This document shows, piece by piece, positions 29,283-63,857 of a stretch of DNA of 64,000 nucleotides. A program made the position numbers and the translations under genes. The stretch comes from Dechloromonas sp. (GTDB lineage Bacteria > Pseudomonadota > Gammaproteobacteria > Burkholderiales > Rhodocyclaceae), in contig JAQTXC010000007.1 in NCBI GenBank assembly GCA_028689015.1, positions 1 through 64,000 on the forward strand, given 5' to 3'. The notes beneath the pieces were generated by a model. That model had not been told where the DNA came from and made no database searches. It saw nothing but the letters and a program-made list of their open reading frames with translations. The first letter of the stretch is position 1. The number at the start of each line of letters is the position of its first letter.

Positions 29283-32200
29283 TCAGGCCCGGCGGGCGGC
29301 CTGCCAGGCGAACAGGTCGTCAGCCGGTAGCGGCCGACTAAAGAGGTAGCCCTGCATGAACTGGCAACCACGCGCCGCCAGGAAAGCGCGTTGCGCTTCG
29401 TTCTCCACCCCTTCAGCCACCACCTGCATGCCCAGATCGCGGGCCAGCGACAAGGTGGCCGAGGCAATCGCGGCATCTTCCACATCCTCTGGCAAATCTT
29501 TGACGAAGCCGCGATCAATCTTCAGCCGGTGAATCGGCAGGCGCTTCAGGTAGCTCAAGCTGGAATAACCCGTACCAAAATCATCAAGCGCCAGTCGAAT
29601 GCCGAGATCACATAATTGCTGCATGCGGTCCAGTACCTCAGCGGTCGGCTGCATGAGGGCGCTCTCGGTCAATTCCAGTTCCAGGCAGTTGGGATCTATC
29701 CCGGTCCGATCCAGCAGACGTTGCACCGTCTGGACGAAATCCGCCTGGCGGAACTGGATGGCGGAAATATTGACGGCCATCGACACTGGCAACCCGGCGG
29801 TGGCCCAGGCGACCTGCTGGCGGCAAGCCGCTTCCAGCACCCACTCGCCCACACTGAGGATGAGGCCACTTTCTTCAGCCAGGCCAATGAACTGCAGCGG
29901 CGGCAACAAGCCCAGATCGGGATGCTGCCAGCGCAACAAGGCCTCGACGCCTTGCAGGGTGGCATCGCCAGCCGTCACCTGCGGTTGGTAATGCAGCACC
30001 AGTTCGTTGCGTTCGATCGCCCGGCGCAAGGCGTTTTCCAGCATCAGGCGTTCGAGGGCATGGGTATCCATCTCGGGCTTGAAATAATGGAAGGCATTGC
30101 GCCCCTGGTTCTTGGCGCTGTACATAGCCACGTCGGCATGCTTGAGCAGATCGCTGGCATCGCTGCCGTCATCCGGATAAAGCGCAATGCCGATACTGAC
30201 CGAGATGCTCAATTCGTGGCCGTCGATCGGCATGGGTGACTGCAAGGCGGCAATCAGCTTGCGAGCGACCAAGGCCGCATCTTCCTGATGGCTGATGCGC
30301 GGCAGCAAGACGACGAATTCATCGCCCCCCAGACGGGCCAGAAAATCATTGTCGCGCAGGCAATCCGCCAGACGACGCGCCACACCGGACAGCAATTGAT
30401 CGCCAACCGGGTGGCCGAGTGAGTCATTGACCGCCTTGAAGTGATCAAGATCGAGGAAGAGGACCGCCAGAATGTCGCCGTGCCGCGCCGCATTGCGCAA
30501 CTCACTGTGGATGCGCTCGTTCCACAAAGTACGGTTCGGCAAACCGGTCAGCACATCGTAATGGGCCAGATAGGCAATATGCGCTTCTGCCTCGCGCGCC
30601 GCGGTGACATCCTGAGCAGTACCGCGGATCCGCAGGCCGTTGGCTGGATCGCCATCGCTCTCGATCCGGAAATGCAGAATGCGTGGATTGAGGTGATTCG
30701 CTGCCAGACGGCAATCGAGGGCAATTTCCCCCACTTCGAGCGCCATCTTGTTCAGGGCATTGCGCAACGCCGGCACGTCCTCTGTATTAACACATTCGAG
30801 CAAGCGACGACGATCCACCCGGGCGTTTTCCGGCAAACCCAGGTTAAGCAGCAATTCACTTGAACAGTTCCAGATCGGCCGGCCTGGCAAGGCCTCCCAA
30901 CTCCCCAAGCGCGCGATGCGTTGCGCCTGCAGCAGTTCTTCCTGTTGCAGGATCAATTGTTGCGATGCCTCAGCCAGTTGCTGTGTCCGCTCATGAACCA
31001 AGAGTTCGACCCGCCGGGCACGGCCGCTGGTCAAGAGCAGGAAAGCACCAAGAATGGCGGTACTGAGCAAGCCAAGAGCCAGGGTCAACCAGACCCCCCA
31101 ACTGCGCAGCGACTGCATGTAAGCCGGCGTCGCCACCACCGTCAGCTCCCACGGTCGACCGGCAAATTCCAGTTTTTTCTGCCAATTCAGGCGCACGCCT
31201 GACCAGGCCACTTCCTTGCAACCAACCGGGCCGTATAGATGCTCAGGAGCCTCGGGCTGTCCACGGTCGACCAGGCAGACATCGACATCACTTGTGCTTC
31301 GCTGGCCTAGCACGGCATCAATCGCATCTTCCATGCGAAACACTGCCGACACCATGCCCAATGGGGCACCCGATCGCGAATCCAGGGCCGCCTGATAAAC
31401 CACCACCCCCCGTTGTTCGCCTCGCTCCTGAACCAGGCGGATTGGTTCGGAGGCCACAGCCTGGCCACTTTCCAGCGTCTGCCGGGCAGCTCGCGCCGTG
31501 CGGGGCAAAACCAGCGGATCCAGACCAACCACGCTGCGGTTATTGGCCAGCGGTTCGACATAGAGAATCGGCAGATACTCGGCCGCTTGTTCGGCAATGA
31601 AAGTCCGCCCCGCGGGATCGCGCCCCAAAATGGCAAAATCAGCGATATCGCCCGCCCGCACCCCGGCTTCAAAAGCGAGTCGCTGCTCGGCATTGATCAA
31701 AGGGCTCCAGCCAAAATTCTGCGTTCCCGGGTAACGCGCCAATAAAGGGGTCGTGAATTGTCGCCAGGCATCGCGCGTCAAGGCCGGATGCACGACTGCC
31801 AGGCGCTGCAAGGCCAGCACCTGATCCAGTTGGGCCTCCAGACGCTTGCCGACCTGACTGCCGACAAATTCGGCATCGCGATTGAACTGGCCTTGCAGTC
31901 GATGGTTTTCCCAGTCGCGAACCTGCAAGAAGGCCATCGCCAACAGACTCAAACCGATACCCATCGGCAAGGCCACCGCCCAGCGGCGCGGCCGCCAGTC
32001 CTCGGCCGGCTGGCCGAAAAAGACCAGCAACAAGGGCACCATCACCAGCACACCCAGCGTGTCCCCTGCCCACCAATTGACCCAGTTGAAGAAAATCTCA
32101 TCGACCGCGAACAAACCGGTCGTCGTCAGCACGGTAATGGCAATCGTCGCGCTCACCAGACAGCCGAGCGGTGCGACAACTGCCACAAAACGCAAGATGC

Positions 32201-32561
32201 TGTCGTGGCTATCCAGCGGGTTAGGCAAACCAATAAAACGCCGGAACACGGTATAACTGAACCAGGCCTGCAAGGTCGCCCCCCCGGCAATGGCAAGCGT
32301 GGCTAACCAGGCCATACCGACCAGACCGCTCTGACTGGCGGCCAGCAACTGCACCCCCAGGGCTCCCAGGAAAATCACAGGCAAGCTGCGTGGTCCGAGC
32401 ACCAGCATCGCCGCCAGGGCAATGCCGGCCGGCGGAAAAAGCGGTGCGGCATAGCCGGGCGGCACGGCAATTTGCAAGGCAGCCCAACCACTCAGGGCGT
32501 AGCTAAAAGCAATCAGAGAATCGCGGCGCAGGGTTGAAAGCATGAAATGCCGAGAGAACAT
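29283..32561 (-). CDS. MASE1-CHASE-GGDEF-EAL membrane c-di-GMP signalling protein
   Basis: A 1092-residue protein. The N-terminus is a MASE1 sensor of about eight spans (residues 10-215, with PPGYAAPLFPPAGIALAAMLVLG). A periplasmic CHASE domain follows (about 230-460, PGTQNFGWSPLINAEQRLAFE), then another span, a PAS-like region, a GGDEF domain with intact LGGDEFVVLLP and an EAL domain with intact VEALLRWQHPD and DDFGTGYSSL. It may therefore both make and degrade c-di-GMP in response to an external small ligand. Start codons at 32561 and 32543 both lack a clear ribosome binding site. Confidence 0.93.
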   Translation of the reverse strand: MFSRHFMLSTLRRDSLIAFSYALSGWAALQIAVPPGYAAPLFPPAGIALAAMLVLGPRSLPVIFLGALGVQLLAASQSGLVGMAWLATLAIAGGATLQAWFSYTVFRRFIGLPNPLDSHDSILRFVAVVAPLGCLVSATIAITVLTTTGLFAVDEIFFNWVNWWAGDTLGVLVMVPLLLVFFGQPAEDWRPRRWAVALPMGIGLSLLAMAFLQVRDWENHRLQGQFNRDAEFVGSQVGKRLEAQLDQVLALQRLAVVHPALTRDAWRQFTTPLLARYPGTQNFGWSPLINAEQRLAFEAGVRAGDIADFAILGRDPAGRTFIAEQAAEYLPILYVEPLANNRSVVGLDPLVLPRTARAARQTLESGQAVASEPIRLVQERGEQRGVVVYQAALDSRSGAPLGMVSAVFRMEDAIDAVLGQRSTSDVDVCLVDRGQPEAPEHLYGPVGCKEVAWSGVRLNWQKKLEFAGRPWELTVVATPAYMQSLRSWGVWLTLALGLLSTAILGAFLLLTSGRARRVELLVHERTQQLAEASQQLILQQEELLQAQRIARLGSWEALPGRPIWNCSSELLLNLGLPENARVDRRRLLECVNTEDVPALRNALNKMALEVGEIALDCRLAANHLNPRILHFRIESDGDPANGLRIRGTAQDVTAAREAEAHIAYLAHYDVLTGLPNRTLWNERIHSELRNAARHGDILAVLFLDLDHFKAVNDSLGHPVGDQLLSGVARRLADCLRDNDFLARLGGDEFVVLLPRISHQEDAALVARKLIAALQSPMPIDGHELSISVSIGIALYPDDGSDASDLLKHADVAMYSAKNQGRNAFHYFKPEMDTHALERLMLENALRRAIERNELVLHYQPQVTAGDATLQGVEALLRWQHPDLGLLPPLQFIGLAEESGLILSVGEWVLEAACRQQVAWATAGLPVSMAVNISAIQFRQADFVQTVQRLLDRTGIDPNCLELELTESALMQPTAEVLDRMQQLCDLGIRLALDDFGTGYSSLSYLKRLPIHRLKIDRGFVKDLPEDVEDAAIASATLSLARDLGMQVVAEGVENEAQRAFLAARGCQFMQGYLFSRPLPADDLFAWQAARRA

Positions 32562-32703
32562 GAGACGGGTGGTGGATTATAGGTGCCCGCACCAAAATGA
32601 ATGCGACAAAATCCCGAAACCTGACAAATCACCCTACCCGCTGCGACAAGATGCCGCAGACACAGCGCCTCGCGGCCGCCAACAAATCACGGATAATCCG
32701 GCC

Positions 32704-33963
32704 ATGCCCTTCATTTTCCGCAGCATCGGTGATGCTGATCACCGGCTTCACCTGCGTCGTCTGATCGTCGCCCGCTGGCTCATGCTATTGAGCATGACGT
32801 TGCTCATCCTGTGGGCTCCCGTTGGCCTCGATCTGCCTTTGCCGCATCTTCCGATGCTGGGCATTCTGGCCATCGCCGCCATCCTCAATGCCATCGCCCA
32901 GCAGCGGCTGCACACCAGCCACCCCCAGGCCGGTGAGTTGAGCAGCCAGTTGCTGCTCGACATCGGCGCGCTCGGTGGCTTGGTTTTTTTCAGCGGCGGC
33001 GCCACCAATCCCCTGGTATCGCTGCTGTTGCCACCAGTCGCCATTGCCGCCATTGCGCTCCCCGCACGCCATGTCCTGCTGGTCGGCAGTGCCGCCATCC
33101 TCACTTACTCCTTGCTGATGTTGTTCTATGTGCCACTGTCCATTGCCGATGCAACGCGCGCCACCCGCCTGCACCTGATCGGCATGTGGCTGACCTTTGT
33201 CGTCTCGGCTGGGCTGATTGGCTGGATCATCCTGCGCATGACGCAGTTGATCCGCCAACGGGATGCCGAACTGGCCAGCACCCGGGAAACGGCCCTGCGC
33301 GACGAACGAGTGCTGGCCATGGGAACGCTGGCGGCGGGTGCAGCTCACGAGTTGGGCACCCCCCTGGCCACCATGCACCTGATCGTCGGCGAATTGGCCC
33401 GCGACCCGACCTTAGCGGCCGCCGTCCAGGACGATATGGCCGTCCTGCGCCAGCAACTAGGCATTTGCAAGGAGATCATCAGCGGCCTGGCCCGCCGTGC
33501 CGGGGCCGAACGTCTGGAAAAATCGAACAGTCAGGCGGTCGACCGCTGGCTCGAACAACTCCGCCAGCACTGGCACGCCGCCCGGCCGCAAGCGGCCAGC
33601 CTGCTGCACGTGCTCAGTACCGCACCGGCACCAGAGATCATCATCGATCCCCGCCTGGAACAAGCAGTGCTCAATCTACTCAACAATGCGGCCAACGCCA
33701 GCCCCTGTCCGGTAGACATCAGCCTAAGCTGGTCCGGGCAACAATTCAGTATCGCCATCGGCGATGCTGGCCCGGGCTTTCCGCCGAGCGTCCTCGACCT
33801 CGGCGGCCATACTGATTTTCCGGCCCATGCTGGCGGCAGCGGTGTCGGCTTGCTGCTCACCCGCAGCGCTATCGAACAACTGGGTGGTCGCCTGCTGCTC
33901 AGCAACCCGGAACATGGCGGCGCCTTGGCCTGCCTCGAAATCCCTCTGGAACAACAGCCATGA
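32704..33963 (+). CDS. regB: RegB/PrrB-type redox sensor histidine kinase
   Basis: A 419-residue membrane kinase. About six spans lie in residues 20-180, including the ubiquinone-site segment FFSGGATNPLVSLLLPP that characterises RegB/ActS/PrrB. The H-box is GAAHELGTPLATMHLI, also diagnostic. The HATPase region has NLLNNAANASP and GDAGPGFPPS. RegB senses the aerobic quinone pool. The redox Cys typical of RegB is not obvious after the H-box. The track start at 32542 is upstream; the ATG at 32704 (MPFIFRSIGD) fits family length. It is coupled to regA by ATGA. Confidence 0.93.
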   Translation: MPFIFRSIGDADHRLHLRRLIVARWLMLLSMTLLILWAPVGLDLPLPHLPMLGILAIAAILNAIAQQRLHTSHPQAGELSSQLLLDIGALGGLVFFSGGATNPLVSLLLPPVAIAAIALPARHVLLVGSAAILTYSLLMLFYVPLSIADATRATRLHLIGMWLTFVVSAGLIGWIILRMTQLIRQRDAELASTRETALRDERVLAMGTLAAGAAHELGTPLATMHLIVGELARDPTLAAAVQDDMAVLRQQLGICKEIISGLARRAGAERLEKSNSQAVDRWLEQLRQHWHAARPQAASLLHVLSTAPAPEIIIDPRLEQAVLNLLNNAANASPCPVDISLSWSGQQFSIAIGDAGPGFPPSVLDLGGHTDFPAHAGGSGVGLLLTRSAIEQLGGRLLLSNPEHGGALACLEIPLEQQP

Positions 33964-34493
33964 GCACGCCTATTTTGGTGGTCGACGACGACCCAGTTTT
34001 CAATAGCGTGCTGGTGCGCACCCTGAATCGACGCGGTCTGGCTGCGCATGGCGTGCTTGACGGCGAGACAGCCTTGCAGCACCTGCACCATCACCCCTGC
34101 CAGCGCCTGATCCTCGACCTCAATCTCAACGGCAGCTCCGGGCTGGCCCTGATTCCACAGATCCTGGCCCAGGCCCCCGACTGCCGCATCGTCGTGCTGA
34201 CCGGTTATGCCAGCATTGCCACCGCCGTCGAGGCAGTCAAACGTGGCGCCACCCAATATCTGGCCAAACCGGTAGACATCGAAAGCATCCTCGCCGCTTT
34301 TGACGACCAAAGCTCGGCCGACGAAGGCATCACCCCATCCGATGAGCCGCTTTCGGTCGACCGCCTGGCGTGGGAACATATCCAGCGCGTGCTTAGTGAA
34401 AACGATGGCAATATCTCGGCCACCGCCCGCGCCCTGAAAATGCATCGCCGCACCTTGCAGCGCAAGCTCACCAAACGACCGGTACGCGCCTGA
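33960..34493 (+). CDS. regA: RegA/PrrA/ActR-type response regulator
   Basis: A 177-residue regulator: receiver domain 1-115 with VVDDDPVFN, LILDLNLNGSSG (phospho-Asp) and LAKPVDIESIL. A Fis-like helix-turn-helix follows at the end, ENDGNISATARALKMHRRTLQRKLTKR, which is the near-invariant RegA DNA-binding helix. RegA controls redox-dependent genes including denitrification and terminal oxidases in proteobacteria. A palindrome resembling its site is present in the nosZ promoter of this window. The start overlaps the regB stop (ATGA). Confidence 0.95.
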   Translation: MSTPILVVDDDPVFNSVLVRTLNRRGLAAHGVLDGETALQHLHHHPCQRLILDLNLNGSSGLALIPQILAQAPDCRIVVLTGYASIATAVEAVKRGATQYLAKPVDIESILAAFDDQSSADEGITPSDEPLSVDRLAWEHIQRVLSENDGNISATARALKMHRRTLQRKLTKRPVRA

Positions 34494-45317: not shown

Positions 45318-46142
45318 ATGGCCCCGTTCAATTCACGCTACACATACGCCCGCGTCGATCCGGTAATCTCGGACGGCATCATCACGCAACTGGCCGCCCT
45401 GCCCGTGTTCAGCCCACTGTCGGCACTCGAACTGGAGCGCATCGCTGCCTCTGCCCGCAACCTCCAGGCCGACAAGGGGGAAATCCTCTTTCAAAAGGGT
45501 GATTCCTGCCACGGCTTCTATCTGATCGTTTCCGGCAAGGTCAAGTTGCTATTCAACTCACTAAGCGGCAGTGAAAAGGTCATCGAAATCCTGATGCCGG
45601 GACAGAGTTTCGGCGAATCAGCGATGTTCATAGACCAGCCCTACCCGCTCAGTGCCCAAGCCCTGAGCGATGCGAGCTTCATCTACATCACCAAGACATC
45701 GGTGTTGCAGGCACTGGAAACCAATGCCCAACTCGCCCGGCAGTTGATCACCTGCCTGTCGAGCAGCCTGCATCAGTTTTTCCAGAACCAGGAATTCAAC
45801 AGCATGCGCTCGGGTAAACAGCGCATCGTCGATTACATCCTGCGCCAGATGAAGCCTGCCGCCGTCCTGAGTACAGTGCCGGTCATCATCCTGCCAGCGA
45901 GCAAGGGAACTATTGCTTCGCATCTGGGCGTCACGGCTGAACACTTTTCGCGCATCCTGCACGAACTGGTCGAGCACAAACTAATCACGGTCTACGGCAA
46001 GAAAATCGAGGTTCTCGATCTGGCGCAGTTACGTGCCGTGCTCGACAGCCAGGGTGAGAGTGAGGGCGAGCGCGAACATACACAAGCAGCGCCCTGCCGC
46101 CTAGTGAAAACCACGCCGGTCGTGCACGCCAGTCAGACCTGA
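45318..46142 (+). CDS. Crp/Fnr-family transcriptional regulator (DNR-like)
   Basis: A 274-residue regulator: cyclic-nucleotide-type beta barrel about 35-150 (GEILFQKGDSCHGFYLIVSGKVKLLF, MPGQSFGESAMFI), dimer helix, and winged helix with KGTIASHLGVTAEHFSRILHEL as recognition region. The four N-terminal Fe-S cysteines of FNR are missing, so it is more like DNR/NnrR NO-responsive regulators than an O2-sensing FNR. The recognition helix AEHFSRIL departs from the usual E-SR pattern only slightly. The tail after residue 240 is extra and polar. Its place between a phosphorelay operon and the nos genes suggests it controls nos. Confidence 0.88.
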   Translation: MAPFNSRYTYARVDPVISDGIITQLAALPVFSPLSALELERIAASARNLQADKGEILFQKGDSCHGFYLIVSGKVKLLFNSLSGSEKVIEILMPGQSFGESAMFIDQPYPLSAQALSDASFIYITKTSVLQALETNAQLARQLITCLSSSLHQFFQNQEFNSMRSGKQRIVDYILRQMKPAAVLSTVPVIILPASKGTIASHLGVTAEHFSRILHELVEHKLITVYGKKIEVLDLAQLRAVLDSQGESEGEREHTQAAPCRLVKTTPVVHASQT

Positions 46143-55068: not shown

Positions 55069-57360
55069 TTACTTGACCTTCTTGGCGCCATTCTGCTCAA
55101 GATAAGTCTTGGCGCGCAGACCGATGTCAGCGGCCTTGACCTGGTATTGCCAGACTTGTTCGGCCCACAGGTTGGCCTGGTCCCAATCCTTCTTGGCAGC
55201 AGCGGCTTCGTGCTTAGCCTTGGCATCCTTGGTCTTGTTGAGCTGGTCGGTTGCATCTTCGACCATGTTCACCACGTCCGGGAAGTCCTTATAGTTGGTG
55301 CTGAGGATGTAGCCAACCACAGAATCAATGATGGCTTGCGTATCGACCACCTTCTTCACCGTCGCCTTGTAGTCGGTTTCGGTATAGCTGGCCTTGACCT
55401 CGACCGTCTTGCCCGGCTTCCAGCCCTTCGGCTTGACCAGCAGGTAACCCTGCATTTCAAGGTGCAGCGCCGAACAGAATTCCGTGCAGTAGTACGGATA
55501 GACACCTTCCTTGTCGGCCTTGAACTTGACGGTGACAGTCTTGCCCGGCTCAATCGAGGCATGCACGTTATAGGTCGACACCGCAAACCCGTGCGTTTCA
55601 TCCTGGGCCCGTTCGAGGTTGGTCAGGTGGATGGTAATTTCGTCACCCACTTCAGCCTCAATGGTTTCCGGTGTGATGTGCGAACGGATCAACGTACCGA
55701 AGACTTCGATCTTGTTGCCCTTCTTGACGATTTTTTCCTCGCCGGCACGAACTGCACCCGGATTCGGCTTGTCGGTACGGGAATCCGTTCCCACCTTGTA
55801 ACGTACGCCCGGCTTCAGTTTGGAGGCTTCAATGGCAACCACGTAGTGCGGCTCGCCGAGCGGAATCGGCATGTCGTACAAGAGTTGCATCTTGTCGTTC
55901 GAGATGTCGATCAGCTGGTGATTTTGCGGATGCAGCGGGCCGACCGGGTTGAAACGGTCGATCGACAGCTTGTTGAGCGCAACCAGGTAACGACCCTTCG
56001 GATCGGCCGAATCACCTTCCATGGTCATCAGGTGACCGATGTTGTAGTGCACGGAGATCTTGTCGAGCACTTTGCCGTCACAGTGATTCCATTTGACGAC
56101 CTGCGAATCGACATACAGCGAGGTGTAGGCGATACAGGGCTTGGAATCGTACTGGGTGTGCAAGGGACCGAGGCCGAGCTGAACCTGGGTGTGCAGTGCA
56201 TCCTTCATGCCGATGACCGGAATGCCGTACGGGTCCTTGGATTCGAACTTGCCGGCCTTGATGGCGGCCTGGATCTTCTCGAAGGAATAGACGGATACGT
56301 GGGTATCGAGCTTGCCAGCGACGGTCAGGAACTTGCCATCCGGGGTGACATCGACGCCGTGCGGCGACTTCGGTTCCGGAACCAGGAAGAGGATGCCTTC
56401 CTTGATAGCCGTTTCCATCATCAGGACCTTGTGGCCATTGATGGTTTTTGCCTTACCGGCAGCAACCAGTTCGGCTGCTTTTTTCCAGTTGATCACGTGC
56501 AGGTAGTCGGTGTCCTTGGCGGAACAGCCGGCTTCATACGGTGGACGACCCTTTTCGATGCCGCCGACGTAACGCTCGGAACAGAAGGAGTTGGTAAACG
56601 ACCAGCCGTCGGATGGGCCCTTGCCGGCATCCGACAAATCCTGCGAGTACGGCGGCAGTTCGAGCGAAAAGGACTGCTTCGGATCGATGCGGCCTTCCTT
56701 GCGGTCGAACTTCCAGTAGGTGATGCCGCCGCGATACTTCTCGTTGAACTCTTCGAGCGGGTAGAACTTCTTGTTCTCGAGCGGCGAAGCGTACTGGGCG
56801 GCTTCGATGATGTAGTCGGTGTTCGGTGTGACGAAGGCGCCGCCGTGTTCCGACTTAAAGATCGGGTTGACCACGATCTGCTTGGTTTCGAAGTCGCGCA
56901 GATCGATCACGGCGAGGCGCGGATTGGCCTTATCGTTGATGAACAGGAACTGGCCGTCGTACTTGCCCTGGGTTTCTGAAATGGCCGGGTGGTGCGTGTC
57001 GCCCCAGTTAATTTCCTTGCCGTCGATGTTGCCCTGGCGCAGGACGCGCTTGGATTCTTCATCGAAACCGTAGCCCTGCCAGGGTTCCGGCGTGAACACA
57101 CCAATGTATTTAAGGATGCGCATCGACGGAATGCCGTAGACGATGACCTGGCCGGACTGGCCGCCCGAACTGAAGGCGACGAAGTCATCACGCTTGCCGG
57201 TCGGGACATAGGTCTTGGATGCAGCCAGCAGATCCTGCTGACTGAGGTTGCGACGTTTCATCACGTCCTGTAGCGACTCGGCGGCCCAGGCGCTTGCGGC
57301 GCTGAGCCCGATCCCGGCTGCAATGAGCAGCACGCTGGATTTGACTGCAATTTTTTGCAT
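55069..57360 (-). CDS. nosZ: Nitrous-oxide reductase, clade II (Sec-exported)
   Basis: A 763-residue periplasmic copper enzyme that reduces N2O to N2. The signal peptide MQKIAVKSSVLLIAAGIGLSAASAWA lacks the twin-arginine motif of clade I NosZ, marking a clade II, Sec-dependent enzyme. The N-terminal seven-bladed propeller carries CuZ His residues (DTHHPAISETQGKYDGQFL, HNIGHLMTMEGD). The C-terminal cupredoxin domain holds the CuA motif CTEFCSALHLEMQG near residue 623. The ATG at 57358-57360 is the start; the track's 57570 adds 70 residues across the promoter. No nosR is present, as usual for clade II. Confidence 0.97.
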   Translation of the reverse strand: MQKIAVKSSVLLIAAGIGLSAASAWAAESLQDVMKRRNLSQQDLLAASKTYVPTGKRDDFVAFSSGGQSGQVIVYGIPSMRILKYIGVFTPEPWQGYGFDEESKRVLRQGNIDGKEINWGDTHHPAISETQGKYDGQFLFINDKANPRLAVIDLRDFETKQIVVNPIFKSEHGGAFVTPNTDYIIEAAQYASPLENKKFYPLEEFNEKYRGGITYWKFDRKEGRIDPKQSFSLELPPYSQDLSDAGKGPSDGWSFTNSFCSERYVGGIEKGRPPYEAGCSAKDTDYLHVINWKKAAELVAAGKAKTINGHKVLMMETAIKEGILFLVPEPKSPHGVDVTPDGKFLTVAGKLDTHVSVYSFEKIQAAIKAGKFESKDPYGIPVIGMKDALHTQVQLGLGPLHTQYDSKPCIAYTSLYVDSQVVKWNHCDGKVLDKISVHYNIGHLMTMEGDSADPKGRYLVALNKLSIDRFNPVGPLHPQNHQLIDISNDKMQLLYDMPIPLGEPHYVVAIEASKLKPGVRYKVGTDSRTDKPNPGAVRAGEEKIVKKGNKIEVFGTLIRSHITPETIEAEVGDEITIHLTNLERAQDETHGFAVSTYNVHASIEPGKTVTVKFKADKEGVYPYYCTEFCSALHLEMQGYLLVKPKGWKPGKTVEVKASYTETDYKATVKKVVDTQAIIDSVVGYILSTNYKDFPDVVNMVEDATDQLNKTKDAKAKHEAAAAKKDWDQANLWAEQVWQYQVKAADIGLRAKTYLEQNGAKKVK

Positions 57361-57429
57361 TTGAATATCTCCCAACAAAACAGAAGTAATACGGCCTGCC
57401 CCCATCGTCGCCTGCGACCAGATGCCGCA

Positions 57430-57444
57430 GCGACAATTTGTCGC
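57430..57444. promoter_or_regulatory. RegA/ActR-like palindrome in the nosZ promoter
   Basis: GCGACAATTTGTCGC is a perfect 7+1+7 inverted repeat, 70-84 bases before the nosZ start. It fits the GCGNC-N-GNCGC pattern bound by RegA/PrrA/ActR regulators. A further GTCGC-CT-GCGAC dyad lies a few bases downstream, at about 57406-57417. RegBA is encoded at 32.7-34.5 kb. Confidence 0.55.
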
Positions 57445-57472
57445 ACTGTAAACCAGGCCGATTTTTAAAAAA

Positions 57473-57486
57473 TTGATCTCTGTTAA
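57473..57486. promoter_or_regulatory. FNR/DNR-like site between nosZ and the PCuAC gene
   Basis: TTGATCTCTGTTAA: the left half is perfect, and the right half GTTAA matches ATCAA at three of five. It lies about 113 bases before nosZ and 100 before the divergent copper-chaperone gene, so it could serve either. Weaker than the box at 54643. Confidence 0.5.
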
Positions 57487-57586
57487 TCCCAATCCGGTAA
57501 TTGTGAGGAAAATGTAGAGATGCCTTTTGGCGCCGCGATCCGGGTGCCCCGGAACAGCCAAAACTCTCATTCAGAAAGGATCTTCC

Positions 57587-58042
57587 ATGCGCCATCCCGT
57601 TTTTTTCGCCGCCAGCCTGCTTTTCTCGGGCGGCTTGTTTGCCGCTGCCGCCGACCAGGTCGAAATTCATCAACCTTACGTCCGGCTCGCCCCGCCCAAT
57701 GCACCGGCTGCCGGTGCCTTCATGGTGATCAGGAATACCGGCAGCAAAGACGTCAAAGTCGTCAAGGCCGACAATCCGGCAAGCCGGTTAACTGAACTGC
57801 ACACACATCTAAACGAGGCCGGTGTCATGAAAATGCGCCAGGTGCCAGCCATCGAGATCAAGGCCGGTGGCGAAACCCAGCTCCAGCCGGGCGGCCTGCA
57901 CATCATGCTGATCGAGCTCAAGGCACCAATGCAGGAAGGCGACAACATAGCAATCACCCTTGGCTTCGACGACGGCAGCAGCAAGCAGGTCGACGCCAAG
58001 GTCATTCGCCCTCTGCCGACCGGCATGCGGATGCAGCACTGA
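57587..58042 (+). CDS. Periplasmic copper chaperone PCuAC (first copy)
   Basis: A 151-residue exported cupredoxin-like protein: signal peptide to about residue 21 (LLFSGGLFAAAA), then QPYVRLAPPNAPAAGAFMVIRN. The Cu(I) ligand pattern is HTHLNEAGVMKMRQV followed by GGLHIMLIEL, the H-M-X10-M-X21-H-X-M arrangement of PCuAC. It delivers copper to CuA sites of oxidases and possibly NosZ. The ATG at 57587 has AAAGGA upstream. It is divergent from nosZ and very similar to the copy at 62778. Confidence 0.93.
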   Translation: MRHPVFFAASLLFSGGLFAAAADQVEIHQPYVRLAPPNAPAAGAFMVIRNTGSKDVKVVKADNPASRLTELHTHLNEAGVMKMRQVPAIEIKAGGETQLQPGGLHIMLIELKAPMQEGDNIAITLGFDDGSSKQVDAKVIRPLPTGMRMQH

Positions 58043-58055
58043 ACCCGAATTTTTG

Positions 58056-58095
58056 CGCGTTTCCAGGCGGTCGACCGCCTGGAAACGCGACTTTT
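58056..58095 (+). terminator. 34-base perfect palindrome and terminator after PCuAC
   Basis: CGCGTTTCCAGGCGGTC and its exact reverse complement lie adjacent with no loop bases (58056-58089), followed by ACTTTTCC. It should form a very stable hairpin that ends or attenuates transcription from the PCuAC gene into the next genes. The T-tract is short. Confidence 0.6.
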
Positions 58096-58113
58096 CCGCC
58101 GCCAAGCCTACAC

Positions 58114-58449
58114 ATGAAAACACTGCTCACAACCCTGCTTGCACTGCTCTGCATGGCCTCCGCCCAGGCCGAACACGCCCACGGCAAGATCGACGACAGC
58201 CTGCCCGATGCCGAGCGTATCCGTTTCTGCGAGCGGATGCGCGACCAGGCATTGCAGGCTTTCTACGACCGCGAGCATGGTCGACCGATGAAACTATTTG
58301 ACGAAGACGGCAGCCACGGCCCGCGCATCGCCAATCAGATTACCCGCCGCATTTACGCCGAACCACAGATCGCCGCCCGCCGCCATGCCGAGACCTTCGG
58401 TCGCGCCACCTGCAACGAAATGATGGGGGCTGCGCCAGACAGCGACTGA
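58114..58449 (+). CDS. Exported hypothetical protein
   Basis: A 111-residue protein with signal peptide MKTLLTTLLALLCMASAQA and mature start EHAHGKIDDSLPDAERIRFCERM. It has two Cys (in RFCERM and ATCNEMM) and several His, which could form a disulfide or metal site. No family is recognised. It lies between PCuAC and SCO1 genes on the same strand, pointing to periplasmic copper handling. Its stop is TGATG-coupled to an alternative start of the next gene. Confidence 0.75.
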   Translation: MKTLLTTLLALLCMASAQAEHAHGKIDDSLPDAERIRFCERMRDQALQAFYDREHGRPMKLFDEDGSHGPRIANQITRRIYAEPQIAARRHAETFGRATCNEMMGAAPDSD

Positions 58450-58541
58450 TGCAAGTCGCACGCCAAATTGATCAAGATCATTTTTGTCGACCGCCGGGCG
58501 CGAAAGAATGGCGACTCCTTGCTCCCGGACGCAAAATCATC

Positions 58542-59219
58542 ATGCCGTCGCTGCCCCGCCTATTTCTTCCGCTGCTGCTGATCGCTGCACTGCCCGGTAG
58601 CGTGCATGCCGAAAGCGGCGCCAGTCTGTATGCGCGCCTCGCCGGCCAGGCCAAAGCCGGCACCTGCTTCGAAGTCGACATTGACCTCGAAAAGGGGCCG
58701 GGACTGAACGGCGACAATGGCGAACTGACCTACCCGATGGCCTTCAACAACGTCACCGAGGGCTGGAGCTGGCAGCCGGGCAGCCAGCCCGGTCTGGAAG
58801 ACTATTACCGCTACAAATACCTGCCGCTCGGCTCGACCGAGGAGGCCCGCGGCGAATACCGGGCAGAAGACCAGATCGGCGAAATACAGACCATGCAGGT
58901 GCGCTGGCGCCACGATTATTTCCTCGCCTTCGACAACATCTATGATTTCTACCGGCGCGAAGTCAATGACGCCGCCGGTTTTGCCAGCCATCTGCCGGCC
59001 GGCCTGGCCGCTAACACGGCCATGCGCGCCCGGGCCTGCCTGGAGGAACCTCTGAGCAGTGAAAGCACAACCTTCTGGAAGGCAACACACGGCCAGCCGG
59101 TCGATTTCACCCTGAAAAAACGTTACCTGATCGGCAAGCTGCAGGCCATCGATTTTGTCGACCGCCGCAGCGCGACCATCATCAGCAGCGTCACTCCCCT
59201 GCCGCAGGCGGCGCCCTGA
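58542..59219 (+). CDS. Exported hypothetical protein
   Basis: A 225-residue protein with signal peptide MPSLPRLFLPLLLIAALPGSVHA. The mature part has two Cys (GTCFEVDIDLEKGPG and RACLEEPLS) and aromatic-rich stretches (GWSWQPGSQPGLEDYYRYKYLPLG). No family is recognised. The track start at 58449 would add 31 polar residues before the signal peptide; the ATG at 58542 is preferred although its ribosome binding site is poor. It is located in the exported-protein run between PCuAC and SCO1. Confidence 0.7.
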   Translation: MPSLPRLFLPLLLIAALPGSVHAESGASLYARLAGQAKAGTCFEVDIDLEKGPGLNGDNGELTYPMAFNNVTEGWSWQPGSQPGLEDYYRYKYLPLGSTEEARGEYRAEDQIGEIQTMQVRWRHDYFLAFDNIYDFYRREVNDAAGFASHLPAGLAANTAMRARACLEEPLSSESTTFWKATHGQPVDFTLKKRYLIGKLQAIDFVDRRSATIISSVTPLPQAAP

Positions 59220-59260
59220 TGCCCAGCCCGCGCTCCACTCCTGATCACGGATATACCATC

Positions 59261-59629
59261 ATGACCCACACCAAACCCACCCTGACCCACATGCTCGTTT
59301 TTGCCCTGGCCAGCGCATTGACCGCCGGCAACTGCCTCGCCGCCGACGAACTGCCGCCGGCCCTGCAGGCCAGCGTCCGCAGCCTCGGCCAGCTCAATGG
59401 CCTGGCCCTGGCCTGCAAGCAAATGGCGCTGAGTACCCGCCTGCGCGACATCCTGATCCATGACGCGCCAAAGGAACGGGTGGTCGGCGAAGCATTCGAA
59501 CAGGCCACCCAAGAAGCGTATCTGGCACAAGGCCAGGCCGGCAAGGCCTGCCCGGACAGCAAGTCGCTAGCCGGCCGGGTTGATGCTGCTGCCGTCGAAT
59601 TGCGCCGTGTCGTCGAGCAAGCACACTGA
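59261..59629 (+). CDS. Small exported hypothetical protein
   Basis: A 122-residue protein with signal peptide MTHTKPTLTHMLVFALASALTAGNCLA and a helical mature part containing Cys in ALACKQMALSTRL and GKACPDSKSL. No family is recognised. The ATG at 59219 overlaps the upstream stop (TGATG) and is an alternative start adding 14 residues. Two bases separate its stop from the SCO1 gene, so both are likely co-translated. Confidence 0.68.
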   Translation: MTHTKPTLTHMLVFALASALTAGNCLAADELPPALQASVRSLGQLNGLALACKQMALSTRLRDILIHDAPKERVVGEAFEQATQEAYLAQGQAGKACPDSKSLAGRVDAAAVELRRVVEQAH

Positions 59630-59631
59630 GC

Positions 59632-60237
59632 ATGGCCATGCTGCGACGCTGCCTGCTCCTGCTTTACCTCGGCTCCCTGCTGATTGCCCTGCCGGCGCTC
59701 GCCGAGCCGGCCCACAAGCTGCTCGCCGGCGAAGCCAGTGCAGTCAATCCGCGCTATCTGCTGATCGGTCCGGACGGCCAGGCGGTCAGCGACCAAGACT
59801 GGCGCGGCCGTTTCCAGCTGATTGCTTTCGGCTACACCTATTGCCCGGACATCTGTCCGACCACGCTGGTCGACATGGCCGAACTGCTCAAACAGCTCGG
59901 CCCCGACGCCAACCGCGTCCAGAGCATTTTCATTTCGGTCGATCCGGAGCGCGACACGCCGCGCGTGCTGCAAACCTACACGCGCTTCTTCGATGAACGC
60001 ATCCTCGGTCTGAGCGGCACGTCCGAACTGGTCCAGCGTGCGGCGCGCAACTACCGGGTGCGCTATGCCAAGGTCGCCGGCAAGGATGCCCAAAACTATG
60101 CGGTCGACCATTCGGCAGGACTCTATTTGCTCGATCCCGCCGGCCAGTTCGTCAAGAAATTCGCCTACGGCCGGCCGGTTGATGAAATCCTCGCCGAACT
60201 CCGCGTTTTCCTGAGCACGTTCGAAACGCAGCGCTGA
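59632..60237 (+). CDS. SCO1/SenC/PrrC-family copper protein (first copy)
   Basis: A 201-residue protein with an N-terminal signal or anchor (MLRRCLLLLYLGSLLIALPALA). It has the thioredoxin-fold copper site FGYTYCPDICPTTLVDM (CxxxC) and the third ligand His in YAVDHSAGLYLLD, as well as SVDPERDTP. Sco proteins metallate CuA of cytochrome oxidase and, in some bacteria, NosZ. A second Sco gene is at 63264 on the other strand. Confidence 0.93.
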   Translation: MAMLRRCLLLLYLGSLLIALPALAEPAHKLLAGEASAVNPRYLLIGPDGQAVSDQDWRGRFQLIAFGYTYCPDICPTTLVDMAELLKQLGPDANRVQSIFISVDPERDTPRVLQTYTRFFDERILGLSGTSELVQRAARNYRVRYAKVAGKDAQNYAVDHSAGLYLLDPAGQFVKKFAYGRPVDEILAELRVFLSTFETQR

Positions 60238-62777: not shown

Positions 62778-63242
62778 TTAGTGGCCGTGCTGCATCTTCG
62801 GCATGCCGCCGGCCATGCTGCGCATTACTGGCGCATCAACAGTTTTTTCACTGCCATCATCAAAACTGAGCGTCACCGGCACGATATCGCCTTCCTTGAG
62901 CGGCGTTTTGAGGTCGATCAACATGACATGCAGGCCACCTGGCTGCAACACCGCCTCGCCCTTGGCCTTGATCTCGATATTAGCCACCGGGCGCATTTTC
63001 ATGACGCCGTTATCATTGAGGTGGGTATGCAGTTCGGTCACCCGCGACGCTGGGTTGCTAGCCTTAAGCAACTTAACATCCTGCTCGCTGCTGTTGCGTA
63101 AGCGCATGAAGGCGCCGGTGGCCGGTGCATTGGGCGGCGCCAGGCGGACGTAAGGCTGGTCCACGGAGACTTGATCGGCTGCACCCGCCAAAGCGGCGGC
63201 GGACAAACTCAGGGTCAGGACAAAGAAGGCAAGTTTTTTCAT
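62778..63242 (-). CDS. Periplasmic copper chaperone PCuAC (second copy)
   Basis: A 154-residue exported protein with signal peptide MKKLAFFVLTLSLSAAALA. It has the same PCuAC ligand pattern as the first copy: HTHLNDNGVMKMRPV and GGLHVMLIDL, plus a Met/His tail GGMPKMQHGH. It is nearly colinear with the protein at 57587 but on the other strand. It follows the second SCO gene by about 20 bases, a common Sco-PCuAC pair. Confidence 0.93.
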   Translation of the reverse strand: MKKLAFFVLTLSLSAAALAGAADQVSVDQPYVRLAPPNAPATGAFMRLRNSSEQDVKLLKASNPASRVTELHTHLNDNGVMKMRPVANIEIKAKGEAVLQPGGLHVMLIDLKTPLKEGDIVPVTLSFDDGSEKTVDAPVMRSMAGGMPKMQHGH

Positions 63243-63263
63243 GTCGTTCCTTTCATGAACGGA

Positions 63264-63857
63264 TTAGAAAGCGTGACGCAAGCGGTCGACGATCGCCGCC
63301 GGGCTGGTGCCATGCGGCCAGCGCTCAAGTACGCGACCATCTCGACCGAGCAAAAAAGTTTCCGCGCTGTGATCCACCACATAACCGTCACCCGCCGTCG
63401 CGACATCCTGGCGAGCATAGAAAACGCCGTAGCGGCTGGCAATTTCAGCAATGGTCGCCGGGCTGGCGGTCGCCCCAACCATTTGCGGGTGGAAAAAGCG
63501 GACATACTCGGCCAGGCGCGCAGGCGTATCGCGTTGCGGATCAACCGACACAAATAAGACGCCCAGTTGCGCCAATTCAGCCGGCGTCAATTGCTGCATA
63601 GCCTCGGCCGTCGCATTTAACGAGGTCGGACAGATATCGGGGCAATAGGTGTAGCCAAAATAGAGGACCGTCAATTTGCCCGCGTAATCGTGCAGCGAAA
63701 CCGGGCCTTGGGCACTGTCGACCGTGAAATCCCCGCCGGGCAAGGCGCGTTCGGTATGGCCGAGTGGTGCCGGCACCGGCTGCCAGAAAAAGGCCAGCCC
63801 CAGCAACAAAAGCAGCAACGCCAAGACAACCGCGATCAGTGATCCCTGCTTATTCAT
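63264..63857 (-). CDS. SCO1/SenC/PrrC-family copper protein (second copy)
   Basis: A 197-residue protein anchored by an N-terminal span (GSLIAVVLALLLLLLGLAFFWQP). It has the copper site FGYTYCPDICPTSLN and His in YVVDHSAETFLLG, plus SVDPQRDTP. Its start overlaps the stop of the upstream partial gene (ATGAATAA). It probably works with the adjacent PCuAC. Confidence 0.93.
   Translation of the reverse strand: MNKQGSLIAVVLALLLLLLGLAFFWQPVPAPLGHTERALPGGDFTVDSAQGPVSLHDYAGKLTVLYFGYTYCPDICPTSLNATAEAMQQLTPAELAQLGVLFVSVDPQRDTPARLAEYVRFFHPQMVGATASPATIAEIASRYGVFYARQDVATAGDGYVVDHSAETFLLGRDGRVLERWPHGTSPAAIVDRLRHAF

Follow-up and report, generated by a model that had tools for sequence, protein, structure and literature searches.

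Our results suggest that the promoter of the clade II nosZ gene in this Dechloromonas genome contains a conserved operator of the RegB/RegA redox system, placed where RegA would restrain nosZ. The model we favour, with somewhat better than even confidence, is one in which a palindrome upstream of nosZ is a RegA operator, nosZ depends for its transcription on an FNR/DNR-type activator, RegA acts as a restraint at the start site, and genes for copper supply are activated by the same regulator. The evidence comes from a stretch of 64,000 nt (the window) and from comparison with related genomes.

The nosZ gene (55069–57360, minus strand) matches the family of Sec-type clade II nitrous oxide reductases, TIGR04246, at 935 bits against a cut-off of 625, in agreement with the clade assigned to it in an earlier, sequence-only reading of the same DNA. 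Its best named NosZ match is that of D. hortensis (93% identical), the host being a Dechloromonas/Azonexus relative. The intergenic region that holds the palindrome is flanked by the start of nosZ at 57360 and by a divergent gene for a PCuAC-like copper chaperone (57587–58042, plus strand), recognized by its similarity to a paralogue at 62778–63242 that has a Pfam PCuAC match. The perfect inverted repeat reported upstream of nosZ is real: a sequence scan shows GCGACAATTTGTCGC to be an exact 7+1+7 palindrome of 15 bp at 57430–57444, the only such site at 0–1 mismatches in the 64,000 nt scanned. It lies within the primary RegA-type box, the 17-mer TGCGACAAATTGTCGCT on the nosZ strand (57429–57445, minus strand), which is conserved in relatives and fits published boxes. 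A second tandem box, TGCGACCAGATGCCGCA (57413–57429, minus strand), has one mismatch to the 17-mer consensus and lies 16 bp downstream of the primary box on the nosZ strand; a second box at the same 16-bp step is frequent in the nosZ promoters of relatives. The GTCGC-CT-GCGAC dyad noted beside the palindrome is present at 57407–57418, but the 12-bp dyad is rejected as a separate element and is better read as half-sites of the two tandem boxes. Chance is ruled out as the origin of the palindrome by its conservation and by shuffled promoters, of which 0.16% contain a site within one mismatch of the 17-mer and 1.9% a site within two.

Both partners of the RegB/RegA system are encoded in the window, as had been proposed. 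regB (32704–33963, likely start, plus strand) encodes a RegB/PrrB-type sensor kinase whose best NCBIfam match is ActS/PrrB/RegB, with a score of 222 that is below the cut-off of 350; the H-box HELGTPLAT is present and the quinone motif GGXXNPF reads GGATNPL. The best NCBIfam match of the RegA/PrrA-type response regulator encoded by regA (33960–34493, plus strand) is the ActR/PrrA/RegA equivalog NF033791, at 166.8 bits and below the cut-off of 250, so that we describe the protein as RegA-type and do not file it as a strict equivalog. Its Fis-type helix-turn-helix (HTH) has a recognition helix, MHRRTLQR, identical to that of the PrrA effector domain 1umq. In group 1 RegA proteins a cysteine just before the HTH is reported, in the published passages available, to form a copper-promoted disulfide dimer. 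Neither the cysteine before the HTH nor the cotranscribed senC of group 1 is found here: the residue at that position is N, and the window has no SCO gene beside regBA, its SCO genes lying at 59632 and 63264.

A perfect match to the 17-mer is located just upstream of regB (32642–32658, plus strand), where boxes are also found in relatives; no other site in the 2.87 Mb of this genome that were scanned matches TGCGNCA-N3-TGNCGCA perfectly. The nosZ site has no mismatches to either form of the RegA/PrrA box, GCGNC-N5-GNCGC or SSGNVRDNHYSNCSS, and one to the RegR box. The reading of the palindrome as a RegA/PrrA-type site is supported by this fit to RegA and PrrA boxes, by its occurrence before regB and by the way its presence tracks RegA among genomes; RegA is very probably the protein that binds it. 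A gene for a MASE1-CHASE-GGDEF-EAL protein (29283–32561) is divergent from regB and shares the box-bearing upstream region. Many Rhodocyclaceae have regA no more than a few kb away from clade I nosZ, and in one of them (L150) it is immediately upstream.

The sequence comparison shows directly that the palindrome is conserved and occurs together with RegA, which genes it precedes and how the promoter elements are spaced. Upstream DNA of about 60 orthologous nosZ genes of the family was gathered irrespective of any motif, and the consensus TGCGRCAWATTGYCGCA recurs in this set, mostly 65–130 bp ahead of the nosZ start codon; as TGCGRCA-N3-TGYCGCA it precedes both clade II and clade I nosZ. In a second set, made of named records whose species overlap much with the first, the consensus is found with at most one mismatch in 66/80 nosZ loci, its carriers including Dechloromonas, Azonexus, Azospira oryzae, Sulfurisoma and Accumulibacter. 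The same genomes were screened for RegA, and doubtful cases were re-scored with a profile that sets RegA (E ≤ about 1e-46) clearly apart from other receivers (E ≥ about 1e-25). A site with at most two mismatches is present in 45/52 clade II promoters with RegA versus 4/9 without; of these four RegA-less cases, two come from incomplete genomes (85% and 92%), a third has a degenerate site and the fourth is chance-like. For clade I the corresponding counts are 36/40 versus 1/23 when six loci found by the motif itself are included, and 31/34 versus 1/23 (p=1e-11) when they are removed, and the association holds at the genus level for both clades together (p=3e-6). Outside the family, in other families of the order, a site with at most one mismatch precedes nosZ in 10/10 genomes with a close RegA and in 0/13 without RegA, four genomes with a more distant RegA-like protein being without the site; this split between close and distant RegA was drawn after the result was seen, and with all RegA-like proteins counted the comparison becomes 10/14 versus 0/13 (p=1.5e-4). 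Since the genomes are related by descent, the p-values are guides and not exact. A few RegA-bearing genomes without the box and a few apparently RegA-less genomes with it are exceptions that we count against the RegA reading. Lack of conservation upstream of orthologous nosZ genes had been named as an observation that would overturn that reading; the palindrome is instead conserved across the family and beyond, and tracks RegA.

Nine clade II nosZ promoters have no clear RegA box (L015, L019, L025, L034, L037, L041, L052, L055 and L056). Most of them carry a TAGGA-N4-TCCTA-like palindrome together with a conserved ATCAGGNTTCNTCACCTG stretch, and 6/9 of the genomes are without RegA. The TAGGA box is found together with a RegA-type box at six further loci (L030, L032, L044, L047, L050 and L054), and at some of the loci with both boxes a gene for a LuxR-type regulator ends just upstream. 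Three second copies of nosZ in RegA-bearing genomes (L039, L040 and L059) are without a RegA-type box or a clear FNR site, so that control may differ between the copies of a duplicated nosZ.

The geometry of the promoter is the point that the sequence-only reading overlooked. It had proposed an FNR/DNR-like site further upstream, and this is found at 57473–57486 (minus strand) and kept in relatives: TTGATCTCTGTTAA, reading TTAAC-N4-ATCAA on the nosZ strand. The Crp/Fnr-family regulator that it placed in the window is encoded at 45318–46142 (plus strand; protein family match) and is a candidate user of the site. A putative nosZ -10 element, TACAGT (57445–57450, minus strand), abuts the palindrome; it is predicted from the sequence and from the enrichment of TANNNT in relatives, where 19/47 clade II promoters (1.3 expected) have this motif ending 1–2 nt before the palindrome and 16/25 clade I promoters (0.8 expected) have it ending 4–5 nt before. 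Measured centre to centre, the FNR/DNR-type site lies 42.5 bp upstream of the palindrome in this genome, 44.5 bp upstream in 26 clade II promoters and mostly 47–49 bp upstream in clade I; an FNR site at the matching distance is present in 32/47 clade II promoters, with 0.04 expected. TTGAY-N4-RTCAA in register with the predicted -10 element, the arrangement of an FNR/DNR class II promoter, is thus found, here with one mismatch, and relative to the predicted start the site would occupy the class II activator position.

The position of the -10-like element, together with an activator at -41.5, would place the palindrome over the nosZ start site, a position typical of repressors. This suggests repression or attenuation, which fits a site covering the predicted start better than simple activation does, and we consider such negative control of nosZ likely, if by no means certain. 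In addition, the nosZ promoters of RegA-less genomes keep an FNR site and are without the box, so that basic activation of nosZ does not require RegA.

A different geometry is seen at the copper genes, where a -10-like element lies 21–23 nt downstream of the palindrome (16 TANNNT among the 51 sites examined, the offset range having first been noticed on part of the same 51 sites). This would put the palindrome near -43, the position of an activator. In this genome, intergenic one-mismatch sites are located before nosZ (two), a FixH-like/SCO/PCuAC operon (at contig position 64428, just past the end of the window), a gene for a NosA-like TonB receptor and a cydA/sigma-54-regulator pair. Only about six intergenic sites stand out, because the other one-mismatch 17-mers lie nearly all inside coding ORFs, and a broad RegA regulon in this genome is rejected on the same grounds. 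Intergenic sites in relatives precede regB and genes for PCuAC, SCO, FixH-like, nosL-like and OprC/NosA-like receptor proteins, and further sites precede genes for a Csp-like protein and a conserved 60-aa protein, coxB and clade I nosZ. These target names come from reading the sequences, except for SCO and PCuAC of this genome, which were identified with Pfam; Pfam gave no match for the FixH-like, Csp-like and 60-aa proteins (the last queried as a partial sequence), and a partial nosL-like sequence gave a weak TAT signal only. The protein of about 60 aa (SLLLGAGFALASLIILPA...) is encoded behind a box at four loci (L129, L130, L139 and L156), and at L130 its gene adjoins regA. The FixH-like operon, a neighbour of nosZ in relatives, is here displaced to about contig position 64400, where it has a RegA-type box of its own. 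On either side of a short stretch, two PCuAC and two SCO genes (57587–60237 and 62778–63857) are arranged in opposite orientation and look like a duplicated copper cassette.

It is possible, though we think it unlikely, that RegA binds at nosZ as an activator, for example jointly with FNR or through a second, more downstream promoter. RegA and FNR both activate nosZ in Burkholderia pseudomallei, and RegR activates nos in Bradyrhizobium; however, the -10-like element and the FNR spacing place the start inside the palindrome, and at nosZ, unlike at the copper genes, no enriched -10-like element lies 21–23 nt downstream of it. The box could also serve mainly the divergent gene, the FixH-like or PCuAC copper operon, and stand in the nosZ promoter by happenstance, as might be expected from the many relatives in which a divergent FixH-like copper operon has the box upstream of its -10-like elements. 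At clade I nosZ, however, the box persists although the adjacent genes are different, regA itself or convergent genes being among them, and in this genome the FixH-like operon has moved away with a box of its own, yet nosZ retains two. Both observations disfavour service to the divergent gene alone, which we regard as improbable; the box may serve nosZ and the divergent gene at once.

There is a slight chance that the palindrome is bound by a different regulator that tends to co-occur with RegA. RegA boxes are described as degenerate in the published passages available, whereas the palindrome here is strict, and another redox system, AccSR, is present in Rhodocyclales. Against this stand the box before regB, the match to the PrrA/RegA consensus, the identical recognition helix and the co-occurrence with RegA in separate families. 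An RNA hairpin is very improbable: the palindrome would indeed lie at the 5' end of the predicted nosZ mRNA, but A/C mismatches are common at the variable position (19/72), pairable combinations are fewer than expected (43 versus 47.9) and the same motif lies upstream of the predicted -10 element at copper genes. RNA pairing is not conserved, and the base-pair counts lead us to reject this explanation.

Of these readings we favour RegA as a probable direct regulator with a restraining role at nosZ. In the assembled model, the palindrome would be the operator of the RegB/RegA redox system, and an FNR/DNR-type activator at the class II position would drive nosZ transcription. RegA would occupy both tandem boxes, and at the first of them, whose centre near +3 would cover the start site, it would most likely hold back or tune nosZ; from a box near -43 it would activate copper-supply and cuproenzyme genes, and it would probably activate its own operon. 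In this way RegA could make expression of N2O reductase follow both copper delivery and the redox state of the respiratory chain. From these sequence patterns we infer that RegA binds and in which state, where transcription starts and whether control is positive or negative. Restraining nosZ while activating copper supply has no obvious physiological logic, which counts against the model. So do the disagreement among published reports, in which RegA activates nos in some species and represses it in another, and the scores of RegB and RegA below the curated NCBIfam cut-offs, although these families are their best matches. More tentatively, and with less than even confidence, RegBA may act throughout the Rhodocyclaceae and neighbouring betaproteobacterial families as a dual-sign copper/N2O switch that activates copper uptake and delivery where its box is near -43 and restrains both nosZ clades where the box lies on the start site; NosZ synthesis would then be matched to copper delivery and redox state.

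Clade II nosZ encodes the enzyme of many N2O-consuming soil and wastewater bacteria, and its transcriptional control is little known. A conserved, readily recognizable operator beside a site of the FNR type allows nosZ control to be predicted directly in dozens of species, including cultured Dechloromonas, Azonexus, Azospira and Sulfurisoma. It would tie N2O reduction to the supply of copper, which is known to limit N2O removal, and would provide the RegA family with an unusually well-defined box in betaproteobacteria.

Direct RegA control of a clade II nosZ had been called notable. RegA control of nos operons has already been published for other bacteria, so any claim to novelty concerns the clade II gene, the directness of control and the copper regulon; what appears new is a conserved, probably direct operator in both nosZ clades within a copper regulon. 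Titles, abstracts and some passages of the open-access papers searched hold no account of this operator or of a RegA copper regulon in Rhodocyclales. The nos operon of Rhodobacter capsulatus is of the clade I type and lies on a plasmid, and so differs from the clade II gene here. As proposed here, RegA acts on nos genes in that species: nosZDFYLX is affected, repression is reported, and the source table gives no box at nosZ (PMC5359404). In Bradyrhizobium RegSR, according to the passages available, a RegA-family regulator binds at nosR and activates nosRZDYFLX alongside FixK2/FNR-type control, an arrangement like that proposed here; unlike here, the system is clade I, the target is nosR, the boxes are degenerate and activation is reported (PMC4064962). 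Burkholderia pseudomallei is, like our host, a betaproteobacterium in which RegA and FNR both control nosZ, but this control is positive, and the accessible part of that report gives no nosZ operator or copper link (PMC8191878). A further comparison is the FNR regulon of Candidatus Accumulibacter, a member of the same family with a nosZ close to that of Dechloromonas and an FNR motif before nos, for which the authors state, in the part available, that RegAB binding sites are unidentified (PMC6446978). The palindrome described here, which is also found in Accumulibacter records, supplies a candidate for such a site.
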